From a virus, in the IMG/VR virus record IMGVR_UViG_3300045944_000276, positions 1-64,000 of that record: DNA of 64,000 nucleotides; one strand, written 5' to 3'. A model generated the notes under the pieces. That model did no database searches, was not told where the DNA came from, and worked only from the letters and a program-made list of their open reading frames with translations. A program made the position numbers and the translations under genes. Of the stretch, positions 3,864 through 51,146 are shown piece after piece (position 1 is the stretch's first letter; each line of letters opens with the position of its first letter).

Positions 3864-4158
3864 TGATTTTTCCTGCGCTCGATTTCGCATAAAAATACGT
3901 TTCATGTGGAACCTCGCCGCGCAGGCAGTCGAGCACCCTGAGTAGTCGGCGGGCGAGTAGGTCGCGCGGTTCCGCGTTGCGGCCGGAGCGAAGGGCGGCC
4001 AGGGCCGACCACGAAGTTCCGACGGCGCGCGCGAGTTCGGAAGCCCGCAGGCCGCGGGCGTCGATCTCGTTAAGGATCGCCGGCCAGTCGATAGGCGCGG
4101 ACACACTGGCCGCTTCAGCGGCGCGTGTTTCGATTTCGCGTTTTCTGTCCGGGTTCAT
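3856..4158 (-). CDS. Small helix-turn-helix protein between TerL and capsid genes, 100 aa
   Basis: The middle of the protein (about residues 24-62) reads as an XRE-like HTH: IDWPAILNEIDARGL followed by ASELARAVGTS and a recognition-helix-like ALAALRSGR. A 99-residue homologue lies at 37297-37596. The start ATG overlaps the TerL stop (ATGA), so it is translated with the terminase. A DNA-binding protein in the middle of the packaging and head genes is unusual. It could control late expression or act in packaging; neither is shown. Confidence 0.7.
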   Translation of the reverse strand: MNPDRKREIETRAAEAASVSAPIDWPAILNEIDARGLRASELARAVGTSWSALAALRSGRNAEPRDLLARRLLRVLDCLRGEVPHETYFYAKSSAGKITQ

Positions 4159-5675
4159 GCGATCAGGGCGGCGACATCGAACGCTGGCGCCGTAACCATG
4201 AAGACACCTACAGCCATCACCGCGGCCACCAGCGGGTCAATACGCTGTGTCGTGTGCGACTTGTCGAGCTTCCTGTTTCCCGCCGCATCGCGCACCACGA
4301 TCGCGCTGGCGGCCGCCATGTTGAGCAGCGGATGGGCGCCGTGGCGCAGCTTCTGCTGCAAGAGGAGGGTCTCGAAGTGCTCCACGCGCGGGCTCATCGA
4401 CTGGTAGCCCTGGCCGACTTCCAACCAGGTGTTGACTACGAAGCCGTTACGCTCGGCGGCCGACTTCGCCTCGACGATGCGCCAGCGGTCGAACGCGCAA
4501 ACATCGACCCGCACGCCCAGGTCGTCCAGGCGGATGCGCAGCCACTGGAAGAGGAAATCGTAGTCGATCGTGGCGCCCGGCACTGCGACCAGGTGTCCGC
4601 TCGCGACCCAGGCGGTGTACGGTGCCCGGTCCCGGAGCTCGCGTTCGGGCAACCCGCGCTCGGGCGTGAAGACGAACGGCAGGAGGTGGACGCTGCCGGC
4701 GTCGTCCTGGGCGGCCAGCACGCAGGCGGTCAGGTCGTTCCGCTGCGAGAGGTCGAGCCCGGCAGCCACCGTGCGCCCGTCCGCGAAGATCGCCTGATCA
4801 GGAGCGGCGCCGCACGCCTTCCACACGCCGGGGGCCAGCCACTGGTGCTCGAGCGCCACGCGCTGGTTCAACACGTGGTTGCGGTACGCCGCCTCGGCGC
4901 CAGGCAGGCGCTTCGCCTCCGCGGCCTGGCGCAGCATCTCGCCCTGGTTCATGAACTCGCCGAAGTGCGGATTGGCCGCCTTGATCGCCTTCAGCCCGAA
5001 TGGGTCCAGGTCAGCGGCCGCCGTGTAGAGCTCGATCTTCCTCTCCCGCTCCTCCCCGCGCAGCGCGTCGTCGATCAGCACCGACAGGAGATCGGCATCG
5101 CCCGGCGCCTGCGTGCTGATGACGATCGAGAGCGGCCGCGGCTGCTTCGCCTGCGCCGTCTCGAGCGCCTCGTAGAGCTCCGAGCGCGGTCCGCGCACCC
5201 GCCCGAGCTCGTCGTGCACCACGAAGGCCGGCGAGAGCCCGTGCGCCGTCGAGGCGTCCGCGGAGAGCGCCCGGTAGAGCGTCCCGAGTTTCGGGCACGC
5301 CAGCTGTTTCGCGGTCTCGCGCACGACCACCACTGCGGCCAGGTCCACCGACAGGCGCACGCACTTGGCCGCATACCCGAAGAGGATCGCCGCCTGGTCA
5401 CGGGACTGCGCCGCCGAGAAGAGCTGGCTATTGGGCAGCGCTTCGTGACCGCACAGGTGCAGGAGCAGCAGGAACGCCGCGAACGCTGTCTTGGCGTTGC
5501 CCCGTCCCATCGACAGGATGAAGGTCCGCGTCGGCGTGTCGTAGATCCGGCGCAGCCACCGCTTCTGGTGCGCCGTCAGCTTCACCGGCCGGCCGACGAG
5601 CCGGCCCTCCGGTATCCGGCAGTAGTCCTCGATCCAGGCGGCGTTGCGCTGCCCGCGCGTCACTCGCTTGCCCAC
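4155..5675 (-). CDS. terL: Terminase large subunit (prophage A), 506 aa
   Basis: ATPase and nuclease of the DNA-packaging motor. The Walker A segment GRGNAKT is at residues 57-63 and the Walker B FVVHDELG ends in Asp155-Glu156. The C-terminal nuclease half begins around the GLDLS segment (first acidic residue) and has a late DPLVAAVMA acidic position. Length and motifs fit the HK97/YmfN-type (Terminase_1) family, which cuts at cos. It overlaps TerS upstream by 16 bases and starts with GTG. Nearly identical over its whole length to the copy at 37609-39123. Confidence 0.93.
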   Translation of the reverse strand: MGKRVTRGQRNAAWIEDYCRIPEGRLVGRPVKLTAHQKRWLRRIYDTPTRTFILSMGRGNAKTAFAAFLLLLHLCGHEALPNSQLFSAAQSRDQAAILFGYAAKCVRLSVDLAAVVVVRETAKQLACPKLGTLYRALSADASTAHGLSPAFVVHDELGRVRGPRSELYEALETAQAKQPRPLSIVISTQAPGDADLLSVLIDDALRGEERERKIELYTAAADLDPFGLKAIKAANPHFGEFMNQGEMLRQAAEAKRLPGAEAAYRNHVLNQRVALEHQWLAPGVWKACGAAPDQAIFADGRTVAAGLDLSQRNDLTACVLAAQDDAGSVHLLPFVFTPERGLPERELRDRAPYTAWVASGHLVAVPGATIDYDFLFQWLRIRLDDLGVRVDVCAFDRWRIVEAKSAAERNGFVVNTWLEVGQGYQSMSPRVEHFETLLLQQKLRHGAHPLLNMAAASAIVVRDAAGNRKLDKSHTTQRIDPLVAAVMAVGVFMVTAPAFDVAALIA

Positions 5676-6088
5676 GGCAGGCGCCTGGGTTCCTGCTCGA
5701 CGCTCGTCGCCGAGGCCTCGGCGCGATAAAGCGTCACCTGCGCGAGCCGCATCGAGTGCGCCAGCCTTTGCACCGCCCTGGTCTCGGCGAGCAGCAGCCG
5801 GCGCAGGCGCTCGTAGCGCGCGAGCCCTTCGTCGCCCTCCAGGGATGTCGGGTCAACCCGGTCCAACTGCGCGGCGATCACGTCCGCTCCCACGACGTGC
5901 CGGCAGTAATTCGCGAGCAACGGCTCGTGTTCGGGCCCGAACCATTCCGCAGGCCGGGAATTGACCGTGCGCAGCCACACCGCGCGCTCGGCCCCGTGTA
6001 TCAGGCTAGCCGGCGGCCCGAGGCGGGTGACGCCCCGAATATCGGTCGCGACGACCGCCAGCGAAGATTTACGACCCCTCTGCTTCAT
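5660..6088 (-). CDS. terS: Terminase small subunit, P27 family (prophage A), 142 aa
   Basis: DNA-recognition subunit that brings the packaging site to TerL. It matches the 142-residue TerS at 39114-39542, sharing WLRTVN-RPA-WFGPEH, the YCRHVVGAD segment and a C-terminal LA-SMRLT helix. It directly precedes TerL, and the candidate cos region lies just upstream. The ATG start at 6088 has no clear ribosome site but equals the start of the other copy. Confidence 0.85.
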   Translation of the reverse strand: MKQRGRKSSLAVVATDIRGVTRLGPPASLIHGAERAVWLRTVNSRPAEWFGPEHEPLLANYCRHVVGADVIAAQLDRVDPTSLEGDEGLARYERLRRLLLAETRAVQRLAHSMRLAQVTLYRAEASATSVEQEPRRLPWASE

Positions 6089-6094
6089 ACCGAT

Positions 6095-6553
6095 TTAGCG
6101 AAGGAACCTATCGGCCGCCGGTGCGCCGGCTCGCTTCGAGTCGTTCGCTTCCCCCCCGCCGGACTCGGTCGCACTCCCCCGTCGATTTGGCTTCGACCGC
6201 CGCCGCTTTCTCAGATCCGCCAGCATTTCCGTGATGAATTCGTCGCGGCCACGGATCTCCGTCGATAGATTCTCAATCACATAGCCTTCTGCAGTCAGAA
6301 TGCCGATCCTTTGAGTCGAGCACGGCGCATACGCAAGAATCGGCCTCGCTATCCCACATCCGGCATTGAGGTCGTAGTGATCGAACAACCATCCGACGAT
6401 AGGCACCTCATCTTCATGATAGTCGTCGTCATCGAGTAGTGTCACCACAAGCGCAGTATGACCAGTGCATGCGGGGATCATATGCTTCGCCGTCAAGCGC
6501 TCGACCTCGGCCTCACGCAGCTGACGCTCGGTAAGCTCTCTCAAGCGGGTCAT
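6095..6553 (-). CDS. Hypothetical protein, 152 aa
   Basis: Not recognised. The N-terminal 25 residues are helical and charged, the middle is acidic (LLDDDDYHEDE), and the C-terminus is Arg/Gly-rich. The last 25 codons run through the candidate cos region, whose DNA is conserved with prophage B in a different reading frame, so that tail is probably not under protein selection. The ATG at 6553 lies five bases from the HNH stop. The two small genes at the same place in B (39539-39769 and 39766-39999) are not obviously homologous. Confidence 0.55.
   Translation of the reverse strand: MTRLRELTERQLREAEVERLTAKHMIPACTGHTALVVTLLDDDDYHEDEVPIVGWLFDHYDLNAGCGIARPILAYAPCSTQRIGILTAEGYVIENLSTEIRGRDEFITEMLADLRKRRRSKPNRRGSATESGGGEANDSKRAGAPAADRFLR
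6113..6180. other. Candidate cos packaging region (prophage A)
   Basis: These 68 bases agree with 39582-39649 of prophage B at all but about five positions, yet the two units read them in different frames as different amino acids. The DNA itself must therefore be conserved. It lies immediately upstream of terS and downstream of an HNH gene, exactly where cos sits in HK97-type phages, and contains the dyad-like GCCGGCGCACCGGC and a run of seven G/C. The cut positions are not known. Confidence 0.55.
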
Positions 6554-6557
6554 GGCG

Positions 6558-6851
6558 TTATCTCCAACCTGACGGCAGCCCATCGATCGCGACCGGCATG
6601 CGCTCGACATGGTTGCCGCCTTTCGCACTGTGCCGCTTCGCATCGCAGTCTATGCACAACGTGCGCAGGTTCGACAGCACGAGCGCCAGGTCAGGCCGCT
6701 TGCGCCTCGGCTCGACGTGATCAACCCGGCTTTCGCCCTTGCCGCGCACGCTGCGTTCGCAGATCGTGCATTTCCAGTGATCACGCTTGAGCGCCTTGTA
6801 GCGCAGCTCCCGCCAGGCGTTCGAGGAATAGAACGGGTCCGTGCCCTTCAT
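6558..6851 (-). CDS. HNH endonuclease beside terminase genes (prophage A), 97 aa
   Basis: HNH nuclease with a CxxC zinc pair (WKCTICERS), the catalytic DHVEPRRK segment, the SNLRTLC segment and a closing CDAKRHS. HNH proteins next to the terminase genes assist cos cleavage in HK97-like phages (gp74 type). The start ATG at 6851 overlaps the stop of the 43-residue gene. The homologue in prophage B is 40001-40348, with a longer N-terminus. The position suggests a packaging role rather than a homing one. Confidence 0.85.
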   Translation of the reverse strand: MKGTDPFYSSNAWRELRYKALKRDHWKCTICERSVRGKGESRVDHVEPRRKRPDLALVLSNLRTLCIDCDAKRHSAKGGNHVERMPVAIDGLPSGWR

Positions 6852-6979
6852 GATCGTCCTTCCCACACGTCGTTGAGCAGCGCCAATTCTGCGTTCGTCG
6901 GCAGTCTGCCCGCAATTCTGCGAAGTTTCCACGACAGCCACAGGTAGCGGATGTGGCGGATGAGCGGCCAGCGCTTCAC
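6848..6979 (-). CDS. Conserved small basic protein, 43 aa
   Basis: GTG start at 6979 with an AAGGAGAAG ribosome site. Trp/Arg/Leu-rich and nearly identical to the 43-residue product at 40564-40695; only a few residues near RLPTNAELALL differ. The overlapping start/stop with the HNH gene suggests coupled translation. The function is unknown. The conservation shows it is a real gene, not a shadow. Confidence 0.65.
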   Translation of the reverse strand: MKRWPLIRHIRYLWLSWKLRRIAGRLPTNAELALLNDVWEGRS

Positions 6980-13998: not shown

Positions 13999-15027
13999 AT
14001 GGCACGACCACGCAAACCCGGAAACGCCGGACTCCCGCGCTACGTGCATCAAAAGCACGGCGCGTTTCACTACGTCTACAAAGGCAAGTGGACGCGGCTC
14101 GCAACCAACATCGCGGATGCATTCCTCGCCCTCTCGAAGGTAATTGCGGCCCAGGGCGGGCAACGCGAGGGCCCGATGTCGATGCCGCAATTGCTGGCGC
14201 ACGCGCTGCCGGTCATTACCGCCGGCAAGTCGAAGGGCACGGAGATCCAGTACGCCTGGGCGATCAAGACACTCACGGCCAGCTTCGAGAAGTTCACCGT
14301 CGAGCAGGTCGAGCCGAAGCACATCTATGCGATGCGCCGGCAGCTACGCGGCCAGCCGGCGAAGTTCAACCTATACCTGAGCGTCATCCGGCTCGCGCTG
14401 GAGCTCGCGGTCGAGGATGGCGTGATCAAGTCGAGCCCGGCCCTCGAGGTGAGCCCGCTGCAAACCGTCCGGCGCGATCGCTACATCACGCACGAGGAGT
14501 ACGCGACGATCTACCGCCAGGCCTCGCCGCTCCTGCAGATCGTCATGGAGCTCGCCTACCGCACCGGCCAGCGCATCCAGGACGTGCTGCGCATCGAGCT
14601 CGCCCAGCTGGTCGATCAGGGCATCTGGTTCCTGCCGCAGAAGACCAGGCGCATGGGGAAGAAGATCATCGTCGCCTGGACCCCGGAGCTCCGCGAGGCG
14701 GTGCAGCGCGCCCGGGATCTGTCCGGCAAGGTCCAGCCGATCACGCGCTACCTGCTGCCCATGCGCAAGGGCCAGGCCATGCGCTACGACATGTTGCGCA
14801 CCGAGTGGGCGCAGACCGTCGCCGCCTCTGGCGTGCCCAAGGCGAACTTGAACGACCTGCGAGCTAAGGCAGCGAGCGATCTTGAGACCGAGGCTGGATT
14901 GCTGCCGGGTCAGGGACTCGCGAACGCGCAGGCATTGCTCGCGCACTCGGCGAGCTCGACGACGAAGATTTACACGCGCAACCGGCAGGCCACGCTCGTG
15001 CATGGACCGCGAGGCAAGGCGGGCTGA
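13999..15027 (+). CDS. int: Tyrosine integrase (prophage A), 342 aa
   Basis: Site-specific recombinase. The C-terminal catalytic domain has Arg in YRTGQRIQDVLR, Arg in LNDLRAKAASD, His in LLAHSASS and the nucleophile Tyr in TKIYTRN. N-terminal arm-binding and core-binding regions cover about residues 1-150. Not closely similar to the B integrase. The repeat cluster immediately downstream is the probable attachment region. Confidence 0.92.
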   Translation: MARPRKPGNAGLPRYVHQKHGAFHYVYKGKWTRLATNIADAFLALSKVIAAQGGQREGPMSMPQLLAHALPVITAGKSKGTEIQYAWAIKTLTASFEKFTVEQVEPKHIYAMRRQLRGQPAKFNLYLSVIRLALELAVEDGVIKSSPALEVSPLQTVRRDRYITHEEYATIYRQASPLLQIVMELAYRTGQRIQDVLRIELAQLVDQGIWFLPQKTRRMGKKIIVAWTPELREAVQRARDLSGKVQPITRYLLPMRKGQAMRYDMLRTEWAQTVAASGVPKANLNDLRAKAASDLETEAGLLPGQGLANAQALLAHSASSTTKIYTRNRQATLVHGPRGKAG

Positions 15028-27433: not shown

Positions 27434-28161
27434 CAGTGCCCCCGCCCGCGCACTTTCATGCAGACCTTGATCGCCGGTATCCGGTCGACGCTAGTGCGCC
27501 CGCCCACGTTGAGATTCGACACCTGGACGTAGATGTCCTTCACGTCCAGGCTCGGGTAGCGCCGCTGCACCTGCTTCGCGCTCGTCTCGAATACGGATTT
27601 CGAGACCATGCGCACCTTGCCCGTGCCCCTTTCATAGCGCCGCTTCTTGTCGCGCGAGCGGCGCATGCCGCGCTCGCCGCTCTTCGTGAGCCACTGCCAC
27701 TTGCGCACATGCACGATCGGGAGCGCTACGTAGAGATCGAGCGCGGCAGGATTCTGCACCGACATGGCAATCGCCCGCGGCTCACCCGGCGTGATCCCTC
27801 GTTCCTTGCCGATGCTGTAGTAGAACTTGAGCGCGCCAAGCGTTGCGCCGGTCACGCGCCGCCCGTTCGCCATCAGGGCCTCGCGCGCGGCTATCGTGGC
27901 ATTGGCGAGCGCCTGGCGGTCGGCGAACCACACGCGCACCGAGCGCTCGACCTCTTCGATGTCCTTCCCGCGCCGGCCGTCCACGAGCATGCCGGTCGGC
28001 TTGTTGCCCATGTCGGACTGCGCGGCGACCTCCTGCAGCGCGATCGTGCGCAGGACGTGTCTGTAGTCGCGCTCGGCGACCTGCAGGATGTCCTTGTAGA
28101 CCAAGCCGCGCTGCGCCGAGCTAATTACGGGGATTGCCGCTACCGCGGGGAGTGCTTGCAC
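27433..28161 (-). CDS. Conserved tail-region protein, 242 aa
   Basis: Not confidently recognised. Residues 90-180 are rich in Arg/Lys with KWQWLTKSG and a basic RRSRDKKRR stretch; the end is beta-rich (DIYVQVSNLNVGG). It lies between the chaperone pair and the tape measure and overlaps both. GTG start at 28161. Homologue at 61587-62321. Possibly a tail assembly factor. Confidence 0.65.
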   Translation of the reverse strand: MQALPAVAAIPVISSAQRGLVYKDILQVAERDYRHVLRTIALQEVAAQSDMGNKPTGMLVDGRRGKDIEEVERSVRVWFADRQALANATIAAREALMANGRRVTGATLGALKFYYSIGKERGITPGEPRAIAMSVQNPAALDLYVALPIVHVRKWQWLTKSGERGMRRSRDKKRRYERGTGKVRMVSKSVFETSAKQVQRRYPSLDVKDIYVQVSNLNVGGRTSVDRIPAIKVCMKVRGRGH

Positions 28162-37608: not shown

Positions 37609-39123
37609 TCAGGCAATCAGTGCACCAACGTCGAACGCAGGCGCCGTCACCATGAAGACACCTACAGCCATCACCGCGGCGACCAGCGGGTCGATCCGCT
37701 GCGTCGTGTGCGACTTGTCGAGCTTCCTGTTTCCCGCCGCATCGCGCACCACGATCGCGCTGGCGGCCGCCATGTTGAGCAGCGGATGGGCGCCGTGGCG
37801 GATGCGCCCCTGCAGGAGGAGCGTCTCGAAGTGCTCCACGCGCGGACTCATCGACTGGTAGCCCTGGCCGACCTCGGACCAGGTGCTAACGACGAAGCCG
37901 TTACGCTCGGCGGCGCTCTTCGCCTCGACGATGCGCCAGCGGTCGAACGCGCACACATCGACCCGTACGCCCATGTCGTCCAGGCGGATCCTCAGCCACT
38001 GGAAGAGGAAGTCGTAGTCGATCGTGGCACCTGGCACCGCGATCAGGTGCCCGCTTCCGACCCAGGCGGTGTATGGTGCCCGGTCCCGGAGCTCGCGTTC
38101 GGGCAACCCGCGCTCGGGCGTGAAGACGAACGGCAGGAGGTGCACGCTGCCGGCGTCGTCCTGGGCGGCCAGCACGCACGCGGTAAGGTCGTTACGTTGC
38201 GAGAGGTCGAGCCCGGCGGCCACCGTGCGCCCGTCCGCGAAGATCGCCTGATCAGGAGCGGCGCCGCATGCCTTCCACACCGCCGGGGCGAGCCACTGGT
38301 GCTCAAGCGCCACGCGCTGGTTGAGGACGTGGTTGCGGTACGCCGCCTCGGCGCCAGGCAGGCGCTTCGCCTCAGCCGCCTGGCGCAGCATCTCGCCTTG
38401 GTTCATGAACGCGCCGAAATGCGGATTGGCGGCCTTGATCGCCTTCACCCCGAACGGGTCCGTATCGACCGGCGCCGTGTAGAGCTCGATCTTGCGCTCC
38501 CGCTCTTCCCCGCGCAGCGCGTCGTCGATCAGCACCGACAGAAGATCGGCATCGCCCGGCGCCTGCGTGCTGATGATGATCGACAGCGGCTCCGGCTGCT
38601 TCGCCTGCGCCGTCTCGAGCGCCTCGTAGAGCTCGGAGCGCGGCCCGCGCACTCGCCCGAGCTCGTCGTGCACCACGAAGGCCGGCGACAGCCCGTGCGC
38701 CGTCGAGGCGTCCGCCGACAACGCCCGGTACAGCGTCCCGAGCTCGGGACAGGCGAGCTGCTTGGCCGTATCGCGGATCACGACGCTCCCGTCCAGGTCC
38801 GGAGAGAGCCGCACGCACTTCGCCGCGTAGCCGAATAGAATCCCCGCCTGGTCGCGCGACTGCGCCGCTGAGAACAACTGGCTGTTCCGCCGCGCTTCGT
38901 GACCGCACAGGTGCAGGAGCAGCAGGAACGCCGCAAATGCCGTCTTCGCGTTGCCGCGGCCCATCGACAGGATGAAGGTCCGCGTCGGCGTGTCGTAGAT
39001 CCGGCGCAGCCAGCGCTTCTGGTGCGCCGTCAGCTTGACCGGCTGCCCGACGAGCCTACCCTCCGGTATCCGACAGTAAGTCTCGATCCACCCGGCATTG
39101 CGCTGCCCGCGCGTTATTCCCAC
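37609..39123 (-). CDS. terL: Terminase large subunit (prophage B), 504 aa
   Basis: Same motifs as in A: GRGNAKT Walker A, FVVHDELG Walker B, GLDLSQRND nuclease start. GTG start at 39123, overlapping terS by ten bases. The sequence is over 90 percent identical in protein to the A copy by eye, so the two packaging systems should be interchangeable. Confidence 0.93.
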   Translation of the reverse strand: MGITRGQRNAGWIETYCRIPEGRLVGQPVKLTAHQKRWLRRIYDTPTRTFILSMGRGNAKTAFAAFLLLLHLCGHEARRNSQLFSAAQSRDQAGILFGYAAKCVRLSPDLDGSVVIRDTAKQLACPELGTLYRALSADASTAHGLSPAFVVHDELGRVRGPRSELYEALETAQAKQPEPLSIIISTQAPGDADLLSVLIDDALRGEERERKIELYTAPVDTDPFGVKAIKAANPHFGAFMNQGEMLRQAAEAKRLPGAEAAYRNHVLNQRVALEHQWLAPAVWKACGAAPDQAIFADGRTVAAGLDLSQRNDLTACVLAAQDDAGSVHLLPFVFTPERGLPERELRDRAPYTAWVGSGHLIAVPGATIDYDFLFQWLRIRLDDMGVRVDVCAFDRWRIVEAKSAAERNGFVVSTWSEVGQGYQSMSPRVEHFETLLLQGRIRHGAHPLLNMAAASAIVVRDAAGNRKLDKSHTTQRIDPLVAAVMAVGVFMVTAPAFDVGALIA

Positions 39124-39542
39124 GGCCTGCTACCCGAGCCGTGCCGCTCCACGGCCCGCGACGCCTTCTGCGCCTGGTAGAGCGAATGATGCGTGAGCCG
39201 CATGGAGCGCGCCAGGTGCAGCACGGCCGTCGTCTCGTCACGCATCATCTTGCGCAGGCGCTCGTGTCGCCGGAAGCCGTCCGGGTCGGCGAGTACCTGC
39301 GACGTGACCTCGGCCAACTGGCCCGCGATCTGGTCTGCTCCCACTACGTGCCGGCAATAACTGACCAGCAATGGCACGTGTTCAGGTCCAAACCAGTCCG
39401 CAGGCCTCGCATTCACCGTGCGCAGCCAGACCGCCCGCTCGGCCTCAAGTTTCAACTCTGGAGGCGGCTCCGGACGCGAAATGCCGCGGATCGGGACGGC
39501 GATCGCCAGCGAAGCCGCCGATTTACGACCGTTCTGCCTCAT
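39114..39542 (-). CDS. terS: Terminase small subunit, P27 family (prophage B), 142 aa
   Basis: Shares WLRTVNARPADWFGPEH and YCRHVVGAD with the A copy; the first 35 residues and the loop after QLAEV differ. ATG overlaps the preceding stop. The candidate cos lies 40 bases upstream. Confidence 0.85.
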   Translation of the reverse strand: MRQNGRKSAASLAIAVPIRGISRPEPPPELKLEAERAVWLRTVNARPADWFGPEHVPLLVSYCRHVVGADQIAGQLAEVTSQVLADPDGFRRHERLRKMMRDETTAVLHLARSMRLTHHSLYQAQKASRAVERHGSGSRPWE

Positions 39543-39769
39543 GTTGACTCTGGCTCATATCGACTTAGAAACGGCGTCAACCGGCCGCCGGTGCGCCGGC
39601 CCGCTTCGAGTCGCTCGCTTCCCCCCCGCCGCACTCGATCGCACTCCCGATACACTCTCGCCGCTTCCACTGCGTCACTGCGAACGACATACCACTGATA
39701 GCGGCGATCGGGATAACGCATGACGAGGCGATAGAACCTATACGCCTTCTTTGCCCGGTCCCCTTTCAT
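39539..39769 (-). CDS. Hypothetical basic protein, 76 aa
   Basis: ATG 39769 overlaps the preceding stop (ATGA). The front half is Tyr/Arg-rich (YRFYRLVMRYPDRRYQWYVV). The back half is encoded by the candidate cos region and is read in another frame from that used in A, so it is likely unconstrained. Not recognised. Confidence 0.5.
   Translation of the reverse strand: MKGDRAKKAYRFYRLVMRYPDRRYQWYVVRSDAVEAARVYRECDRVRRGGSERLEAGRRTGGRLTPFLSRYEPEST
39582..39649. other. Candidate cos packaging region (prophage B)
   Basis: The B partner of 6113-6180: about five differences in 68 bases despite a shifted reading frame. Lies directly upstream of terS, with an HNH gene on its other side. Confidence 0.55.
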
Positions 39770-39999
39770 GCTGCGTGGTCCATCTCGATGTAGAACGTAG
39801 GCTCGATCAGGGCGGCTGCGTGCTCCCACTCAAACGTCACGTTCTGCGTTGAGAAAACCAGTGCGCGGTCGCGGTCGGTAGTCAGGCGTGCGTGCCACTG
39901 CCCGTCGCGATGCTGCTCGAAATATTCAATCCAGATGGGGACAGGGATGCGGTAGACCTTGCCACTCACTTCGAGCCCTTGTATGCGAATGCGTGTCAT
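39766..39999 (-). CDS. Hypothetical protein, 77 aa
   Basis: GGTGGAGAT precedes ATG 39999. Beta-rich front (RIQGLEVSGKVYRIPVPIW) and a His/Asp-rich middle. Present in B only. Not recognised. Confidence 0.5.
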   Translation of the reverse strand: MTRIRIQGLEVSGKVYRIPVPIWIEYFEQHRDGQWHARLTTDRDRALVFSTQNVTFEWEHAAALIEPTFYIEMDHAA

Positions 40000-40000
40000 G

Positions 40001-40348
40001 CTATCTCCACCCTGCCGGCAACCCATCGATGGCCACGGGCTGACGCTCGACATGGTTACCGCCTTTCGCGCTGTGCCGCTTCGCATCGCAACCCACGCAC
40101 AGGGTTCTGATATTCGACAGCACCAGCGCCAGGTCAGGCCGCTTGCGCCTGTGCTCGATGTGATCGACCCTGCTTGCGCCCTTCATGCGCACACTGCGCT
40201 CGCATACTGTGCATTTCCAGTGATCACGCTCAAGCGCCTTGTAGCGCAGTTCCCGCCAAGCGCTCGAGGAATAGAAGGGATCGGTCCCCTTGCGCTCTCG
40301 CCACTGCTCGCCGAGGAGTTTCTGCACCAGACCGCGGTTTCCGCTCAT
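40001..40348 (-). CDS. HNH endonuclease beside terminase genes (prophage B), 115 aa
   Basis: Homologue of 6558-6851 with the same CxxC, DHIEHRRK, SNIRTLC and CDAKRHS segments and about 18 additional N-terminal residues. Likely assists terminase in cos cutting, as shown for HK97-type HNH proteins. Confidence 0.85.
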   Translation of the reverse strand: MSGNRGLVQKLLGEQWRERKGTDPFYSSSAWRELRYKALERDHWKCTVCERSVRMKGASRVDHIEHRRKRPDLALVLSNIRTLCVGCDAKRHSAKGGNHVERQPVAIDGLPAGWR

Positions 40349-49608: not shown

Positions 49609-49905
49609 ATGGCAATCTGGAAAGACGCAGAAGCAGCCGACAAGGCTCTGGCGGTTCTGCAGACCTTCGTCCAGCGCGGCGCCCCGGCGCCCGAAGCGGT
49701 GACGCACGTGCACCTGAACCCGGTACGCTACGTGCTGGTCCACCTGGCCGCGGCCGTCACCGGATACACGGAAGCGGCAATACGCCGCAAGATCCACGAG
49801 GGGGTGTGGCGCGAGGGCCGCGAATGGGTGCGCGCGCCCGATGAGAGAATTCTGATAGACCTGGAAGGGGTCACTAAATGGGTAGTCGAAGAACGGTCAA
49901 GGTAG
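49609..49905 (+). CDS. Excisionase-like protein (prophage B), 98 aa
   Basis: The C-terminal half, TGYTEAAIRRKIHEGVWREGREWVRAPDERILID, is the winged-HTH pattern of excisionases, directing integrase to excise. It overlaps the integrase gene by 28 bases. The N-terminal half is unremarkable. Confidence 0.7.
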   Translation: MAIWKDAEAADKALAVLQTFVQRGAPAPEAVTHVHLNPVRYVLVHLAAAVTGYTEAAIRRKIHEGVWREGREWVRAPDERILIDLEGVTKWVVEERSR

Positions 49906-51146
49906 ATGTCCGTGCAAAAAGCATTCGCCTGATCTTTACGTGGGAGGGGGTTCAACGCTTCGAGTCCTTGCCAGGCGGCATCACCCCGCCCGAGCAGCGC
50001 GCGGCGCGTCGAGTGGCTGCGCAGTTGCTGCGCGCGCTCGAGTCGGGCACGTTTTCCTATCACGAGTTCTTCCCCGATTCGCCGAACGCAGGTGCAAGCG
50101 GCGAGCGCACGGTGCGCCACTACGGGGAGCTCTGGCACGCCTCCAAGGGCGCGCTCGCGGAAGCCACGCGCTACCAGTACCAGGGGGCGCTCGATTTCTG
50201 GTATGCGCAGCCGCTTGATCCGGGGCGGACGAGATTTCTCCTTGGAGATGCGGAGGTCACGCGCGTGCGCCACAGCCAGCTGGCCGCGCTCGTGGGGCGT
50301 CATCCATGGCCGTCAAACCGCATGATGAACAATCGACTGATACCGTTACGGGGGCTTTTCGAAATGGCATCCAAGGACTGCGGAGTATCCGATCCGTCCG
50401 ATGGCATCAAGGCCGGGCGCGTGCAGAAGGCGCCGCCCGATCCGTTGGACGGCGAGGAGCGCGAGATCATCCTGGCCGATCTGGCCGAGCACTATCAGCC
50501 AAACATCGTGAACTACTTCGAGTTCGCCTTCCTGACGGGGCTGCGCCCGGAGGAAGAGGTGGCGCTTCTGTGGCGCGACTACGAGGCGCGTCGCGGCTCG
50601 GTGCGCGTTGAGCGCGCGCGGAGCTTCCGGGGGCGGGTCAAGCCCACGAAGACCTACGAGGTCCGGGATCTCGAGTTGACCACCAGGGCGCGCGCCGTGC
50701 TCGAGCGCCAGCGCGTGCTGACCGGGAAGAGCGCCCACGGCCACATCTTCGAGAACCCGCAGACGGGGAACCCCTGGTATGACGGCCGGAGCCAGCGCGA
50801 GGAGTACTGGGATCGCGTCTTCGAGCGGGTCGGAATCCGCGCGCGCGTGCCCTACCAGACGCGCCACACGTACGCGACGCTCGCGCTGATGGGCGGGGTG
50901 AATCCCGCCTACATCGCGCGCCAGCTCGGGCACAAGAACACCAAGATGCTGTACGAGACCTACGCCAAGTGGATCGACGGCGCCGATCGCGGGCGCGAGC
51001 TGGCGAAACTGGAGGACGTGCACGGAGCCGTACCGGTGCGTGAGTACGTGCCGGTGCCGGCCGGGCGGCCGGCCAAGCCTGGCGCGAAGCGCTCAGATGC
51101 GAAGTTGAAACTCGTCCGCGGCGCGTTGAAGGGACCGAAGGATTGA
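49878..51146 (+). CDS. int: Tyrosine integrase with DUF3596 arm domain (prophage B), 422 aa
   Basis: N-terminal DUF3596-like arm-binding part (SIRLIFTWEGVQRFESLPG), central core-binding region, and catalytic domain: Arg in LTGLRPEEEVALLW, RHTYATLAL with Arg/His, His in QLGHKN and Tyr in LYETYAKW. Longer than and different from the A integrase. The ATTATGCC repeat cluster 0.7 kb downstream is its likely target. Confidence 0.92.
   Translation: MGSRRTVKVDVRAKSIRLIFTWEGVQRFESLPGGITPPEQRAARRVAAQLLRALESGTFSYHEFFPDSPNAGASGERTVRHYGELWHASKGALAEATRYQYQGALDFWYAQPLDPGRTRFLLGDAEVTRVRHSQLAALVGRHPWPSNRMMNNRLIPLRGLFEMASKDCGVSDPSDGIKAGRVQKAPPDPLDGEEREIILADLAEHYQPNIVNYFEFAFLTGLRPEEEVALLWRDYEARRGSVRVERARSFRGRVKPTKTYEVRDLELTTRARAVLERQRVLTGKSAHGHIFENPQTGNPWYDGRSQREEYWDRVFERVGIRARVPYQTRHTYATLALMGGVNPAYIARQLGHKNTKMLYETYAKWIDGADRGRELAKLEDVHGAVPVREYVPVPAGRPAKPGAKRSDAKLKLVRGALKGPKD

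Follow-up and report, generated by a model that had tools for sequence, protein, structure and literature searches.

What keeps a short stretch of DNA nearly constant at two places in one viral record, where the reading frames that cross it are otherwise unrelated? The window analysed here, a stretch of 64,000 nucleotides, contains such a block twice, each time between a gene for an HNH endonuclease and terS. It forms part of a 66,513-bp IMG/VR record, which consists of the window (1-64000) and a remaining portion (64001-66513). An earlier reading of the sequence had proposed the block as a probable cos. Judging from sequence comparison, we conclude that the block is almost certainly the cos of two related temperate phages, P and Q, of the HK97 packaging type (3' cos).

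A record probably assembled from two phages

Phage P extends from 66513 to 39592, joined to 39591 to ~32.7 kb. Phage Q extends from 6122 to 1, continues through an extension provided by another contig (L005), and then runs from ~32.7 kb to 6123. Both genomes are ~33.5 kb long and have a near-identical portal segment in common, in which stretches of 311 and 197 bp match exactly. Both ends of the record lie inside this shared segment, and contig L005/L030 runs from the left end of the record into it. The record is probably a figure-of-eight assembly of two circularised genomes and not a tandem array. An arrangement as tandem prophages was considered and set aside, as the record begins and ends in the portal repeat common to both phages and the integrases differ in their domains.

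The integrase genes (13999-15024 and 49878-51143, both on the + strand) are distinct, the one of P encoding an Arm-DNA-bind_2 domain. The replication genes differ as well (VapE-like in Q, Prim-Pol/AAA in P) and stand beside closely related structural genes. A further record, IMGVR 3300045944_000167, is a long contig that extends from the cos end of one phage and crosses a second cos near 27452. Past this internal cos it carries a different TerS family, followed by a similar downstream region. This arrangement reflects either an assembly effect of the same kind or mosaicism among packaging modules.

Packaging genes and the conserved block

In both copies, the minus strand reads HNH gene, block, terS, and terL (Table 1). 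The TerL proteins belong to the HK97 family (phrog_9, PF03354, PF20441), and the HNH protein of P shows a local 36% match to HK97 gp74 (E=3e-6). The TerS proteins, assigned to phrog_12559, have no detectable homology to HK97 gp1 (hhalign probability 0.14%), and their profile has no match in the PDB. The label "HK97-like" therefore suits TerL and the geometry of the cut described below, and does not extend to TerS.

The best local alignment of the two copies is ungapped and pairs 6078-6178 of Q with 39548-39648 of P at an offset of 33470. Within its core (6112-6178 and 39582-39648), 63 of 67 bases are identical. The near-identity claimed in the original prediction, about five differences in 68 bases against 39582-39649, thus holds, with the partner placed one base off; read literally, at an offset of 33469, 47 of the 68 positions differ. 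The two open reading frames that cross the block, neither of which has a family match, read it in phases 1 and 2, in agreement with the earlier claim that the block is read in different frames. On the HNH side, BLASTN finds no similarity to the other copy between 6178 and 6545, and the alignment resumes only at 6545. Against named phages, a BLASTN search with the block returns chance matches only.

Table 1 Positions of packaging genes, predicted cos elements and crossing reading frames in phages Q and P (window coordinates).
Feature	Phage	Position	Strand	Match or basis
terS, 142 aa	Q	5660-6088	-	phrog_12559
terS, 142 aa	P	39114-39542	-	phrog_12559
terL, HK97 TerL type	Q	4155-5675	-	HK97 TerL structure, PDB 6z6d, E=7e-123
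terL	P	37609-39123	-	Family matches
HNH endonuclease gene	Q	6558-6941	-	PF01844, phrog_144
HNH endonuclease gene	P	40001-40348	-	PF01844, phrog_144
cosN, predicted 3' overhang CGGCGGCCGA(T), 10-11 nt	Q	6110-6120	-	Homologous to the 11 bases between L019 and L129
cosN, predicted 3' overhang CGGCGGCCGG(T), 10-11 nt	P	39580-39590	-	L019 ends at 39591, L129 starts at 39579
Right cos flank	Q	6121-6178	-	Conserved with 39591-39648; ORFs across it in different frames
Right cos flank	P	39591-39648	-	Conserved with 6121-6178; L019 stops at the inner edge of this flank
G7 tract, 30 nt upstream of right-end cut	Q	6151-6157	-	G-run recurs in relatives
G7 tract, 30 nt upstream of right-end cut	P	39621-39627	-	G-run recurs in relatives
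GCTAAATCGG box, 10 nt inside left end, candidate terminase/TerS recognition box	Q	6090-6099	-	Contig starts of relatives; HK97 TerS site
TCTAAGTCGA box, 10 nt inside left end	P	39560-39569	-	L129 starts at 39579
ORF through cos block, unrelated to P ORF	Q	6095-6643	-	No family match
ORF through cos block, other frame	P	39539-39829	-	No family match

Across the aligned parts of P and Q, 11.5% of 67-base windows (39 places) reach at least 62/67, so what carries weight is that the block is isolated and read in shifted frames, not how similar its copies are. Of the four substitutions in the core, three are silent in one frame; with so few changes, the frame argument is suggestive and insufficient alone to establish selection on DNA. 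To call the block a clean sign of such selection was too strong for one pair of sequences, and it is the contig ends and the relatives that make the case.

These figures bear directly on the possibility that the block has no function of its own and was passed between P and Q as a short segment in a recent recombination event. The two phages do share recently exchanged DNA, as the exact repeats of the portal region attest, and equally similar windows are as common as just stated. Such an exchange would nevertheless explain neither the contigs from other samples that terminate within the block nor the presence of the same layout of tract, AC cut and box in HK97, 16-3, PAJU2, and distant relatives. 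We regard it as very improbable.

Contig ends at the site

Two contigs from one metagenome, both 100% identical to the window, delimit the site in phage P. L019 (IMGVR 3300045941_000360, 20,159 bp) stops on the HNH side, and L129 (3300045941_000436) starts on the terS side; 11 bases, CGGCGGCCGGT, are absent from both. In phage Q, L005 (IMGVR 3300045930_000140, 6,679 bp), 99.98% identical to window positions 6122-1, stops at 6122 inside the block. This terminus lies 12-13 nt before the predicted left end, with the overhang and AC included, and is thus approximate.

According to the PhageTerm paper (PMC5557969), contigs tend to terminate at true DNA ends, and during end repair a 5' overhang is filled in whereas a 3' overhang is degraded. 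Since 3' overhangs are trimmed in this way, the 11-base gap in P points to a 3' overhang of about 10-11 nt, and it is from this gap between contig ends that we infer the polarity. A near-blunt cut, suggested by a 2-bp overlap of L005 and L019, was also considered; it is ruled out by the gap of 10-11 nt seen with L129 and in the sister group.

The closest relative, 3300045931_000164 (G017; 27,263 bp), has a TerS 93% identical to that of P and represents a whole linear genome with both ends at homologous points. It starts with GCCTTTTTTTCCTAA, 10 nt before a CCTAA box, and at the other end 30 nt follow GGGGGG, the last three being GAC. Its HNH gene lies just inside the right end, with ~70 nt in between and no room for another gene. 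In the sister group, left contigs start with CCTGTT and the right-end contig L122 ends with GGACAC, while contigs spanning the site contain exactly 10 nt (CGAGCGCGTG) between the left and right ends. Judged from contig ends only, the linear ends therefore occupy a constant position, flanked by the HNH gene and terS, namely 39591, 39579, 6122, and both termini of G017.

The compact right end of G017 also bears on a coding explanation, in which the block would encode the conserved C-terminal tail of a small protein whose gene lies between HNH and terS. The frame 2 peptide is nearly equal in both copies (ECDRVRRGGSERLEA[S/G]RRTGG), and this is the frame in which three of the four substitutions are silent. 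However, the long ORFs across the block lie in different frames and are otherwise unrelated, the open stretch of frame 2 in Q covers only 6272 to 6108, and G017 lacks the peptide as well as the space for it. We find this explanation scarcely credible.

Similarly, there is only the slightest chance that the block is a pac site or a transcription signal (possible hairpin GCCGGCGCACCGGC), with headful packaging in place of cos. A GC-rich inverted repeat at the cut and the intergenic position would suit it. Headful packaging, however, yields at most one defined end, whereas here two ends are fixed, separated by 10-11 nt in P as well as in the sister group, and G017 likewise has two fixed ends; the hairpin is not at the cut in relatives, and there is no T-run. 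Neither headful packaging nor ends elsewhere, the outcomes named as contrary to the original prediction, is seen, as the contig ends fall at the block.

A probable cos between the HNH and terS genes, as first proposed, is thus supported by contig ends and relatives, and its position is sharpened to within a base. Its extent changes: the cut falls at one edge of the 68-base block, most of which (6121-6180) forms the right flank with the G-tract, and the left flank and the likely terminase box lie outside the block.

A layout shared with relatives

AC precedes the overhang of Q, an arrangement shared by HK97, PAJU2, and relatives, and the P/Q consensus of the overhang on the minus strand is CGGCGGCCGR. 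Alignment of the region in related phages, proposed earlier as a check, reveals a recurring layout of G-tract, AC cut, and box. In P, Q, HK97, 16-3, PAJU2, and ~15 uncultured relatives, a G-tract is followed after ~32 (30-35) nt by AC and the 10-11 nt overhang, and after a further 10-13 nt by a YTAA box.

We compared 80 viral contigs that encode a related TerS. In 36 of them an end lies 31-110 nt upstream of the start of terS, where random ends would give 0.67. Exactly 10 nt separate the start of 23 of these 36 from an N[CTA]TAA box, a word that occurs at 2.4% of offsets; the 23 include near-duplicates and represent 16 distinct start sequences. A run of at least four G ending 31-39 nt before the cut is present at 17 of 18 loci against a background of 2.2%, a comparison that ignores kinship among the loci. 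A search with a single TerS protein against genome contigs yielded one locus (L140), and an HNH protein search of the contigs gave no contig beyond the one already known.

On both strands of the 66.5-kb record, a search with the layout pattern recovers the two flagged sites and nothing else, against 0.11 matches expected in a random genome of equal dinucleotide composition; the pattern was shaped after viewing P and Q together with their relatives and is not fully independent of them. With a weight matrix trained on the relatives alone, the Q site has the top score of the record (19.3) and the P site the fourth highest (11.3), with shuffled genomes reaching 18.6.

Two further features lie close to the cut. 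The inverted repeat GCCGGCGCACCGGC spans the right-hand cut at 6117-6130 and 39587-39600, and is absent from the cut in more distant relatives. The first eight residues of TerS (MKQRGRKS; 6065-6088 in Q) are nearly invariant, with the rest of the family ~35% identical. This N-terminus likely reflects either a DNA contact or a constraint on the DNA near cos.

Proposed course of cutting

In HK97, the HNH protein gp74 acts with TerL in making the staggered cut (PMC9410871). For P and Q, we infer a comparable course, including which enzyme would cut which strand and what the G-tract and the box would bind. TerS would bind inside the left end, and TerL together with TerS, probably helped by the neighbouring HNH nuclease, would cut concatemeric DNA in a staggered manner, at a point between the HNH gene and terS. 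This would leave 3' overhangs of 10-11 nt (Table 1), and these tails would anneal after injection. The HNH-side flank has the G7 tract three helical turns from the cut, and the terS-side flank has the YTAA box at about the place where HK97 TerS binds its own cos.

We further put forward, as a tentative idea held with less than even confidence, that HK97-type cos sites share a fixed three-part layout even where their TerS families are unrelated, and that the G-tract may be a recognition element for terminase or HNH, similar to cosQ and not yet described for 3'-cos phages. In the literature searched, whose reach did not extend to Kala 2014 and Quiles-Puchalt 2014 on HNH and cos packaging, we found no description of the conserved G-tract. 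The type of site is already known as the HK97-type 3' cos, and the G-tract is the sole part for which no published description was found. Its partner, possibly HNH or terminase, could be tested in the HK97 in vitro system.

As a whole, the analysis places the genome ends of two uncultured phages to within a base or so and shows that a cos can be mapped from where contigs stop in public viromes, with no need of reads. The comparison also provides a consensus for seeking HK97-type cos sites in sequence.

Comparison with known phages

Pseudomonas phage PAJU2 (Detrevirus) is the nearest named relative, with 57% identity in TerL and 46% in TerS. Its record ends with GAC and starts at the presumed overhang, and the spacing to the box is as in P and Q; in contrast, its overhang is CGCGCCCGAA(A) and other small genes lie beside cos. 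In the record of Rhizobium phage 16-3, a 10-nt cohesive end is annotated at the right terminus, and the layout is that of P and Q. This phage differs in that the final 800 bp of its record carry no HNH gene annotation and the box lies 13 nt inside the end.

Escherichia phage HK97 (gp1 TerS, gp2 TerL, gp74 HNH) provides the reference system. Its TerL is homologous to those of P and Q (44% identity), the HNH gene lies upstream of cos, and terS follows ~50 nt downstream. AC precedes the known 10-nt 3' overhang, CGCCGCCAAA, and a G-tract is located 32 nt upstream of the cut. In contrast to P and Q, where the box is 10-11 nt inside the left end, that of HK97 is 13 nt inside, and the overhang sequences differ. 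HK97 TerS is not detectably homologous to the TerS proteins of P and Q. Its minimal site, +15 to +29 (PMC11331095), begins with CTAA, thus placing this motif at the TerS-binding position, and the conserved YTAA box of P and Q lies at about +11 to +15. Even with TerS proteins that lack detectable homology, this correspondence makes the YTAA box the best candidate for the terminase recognition site.
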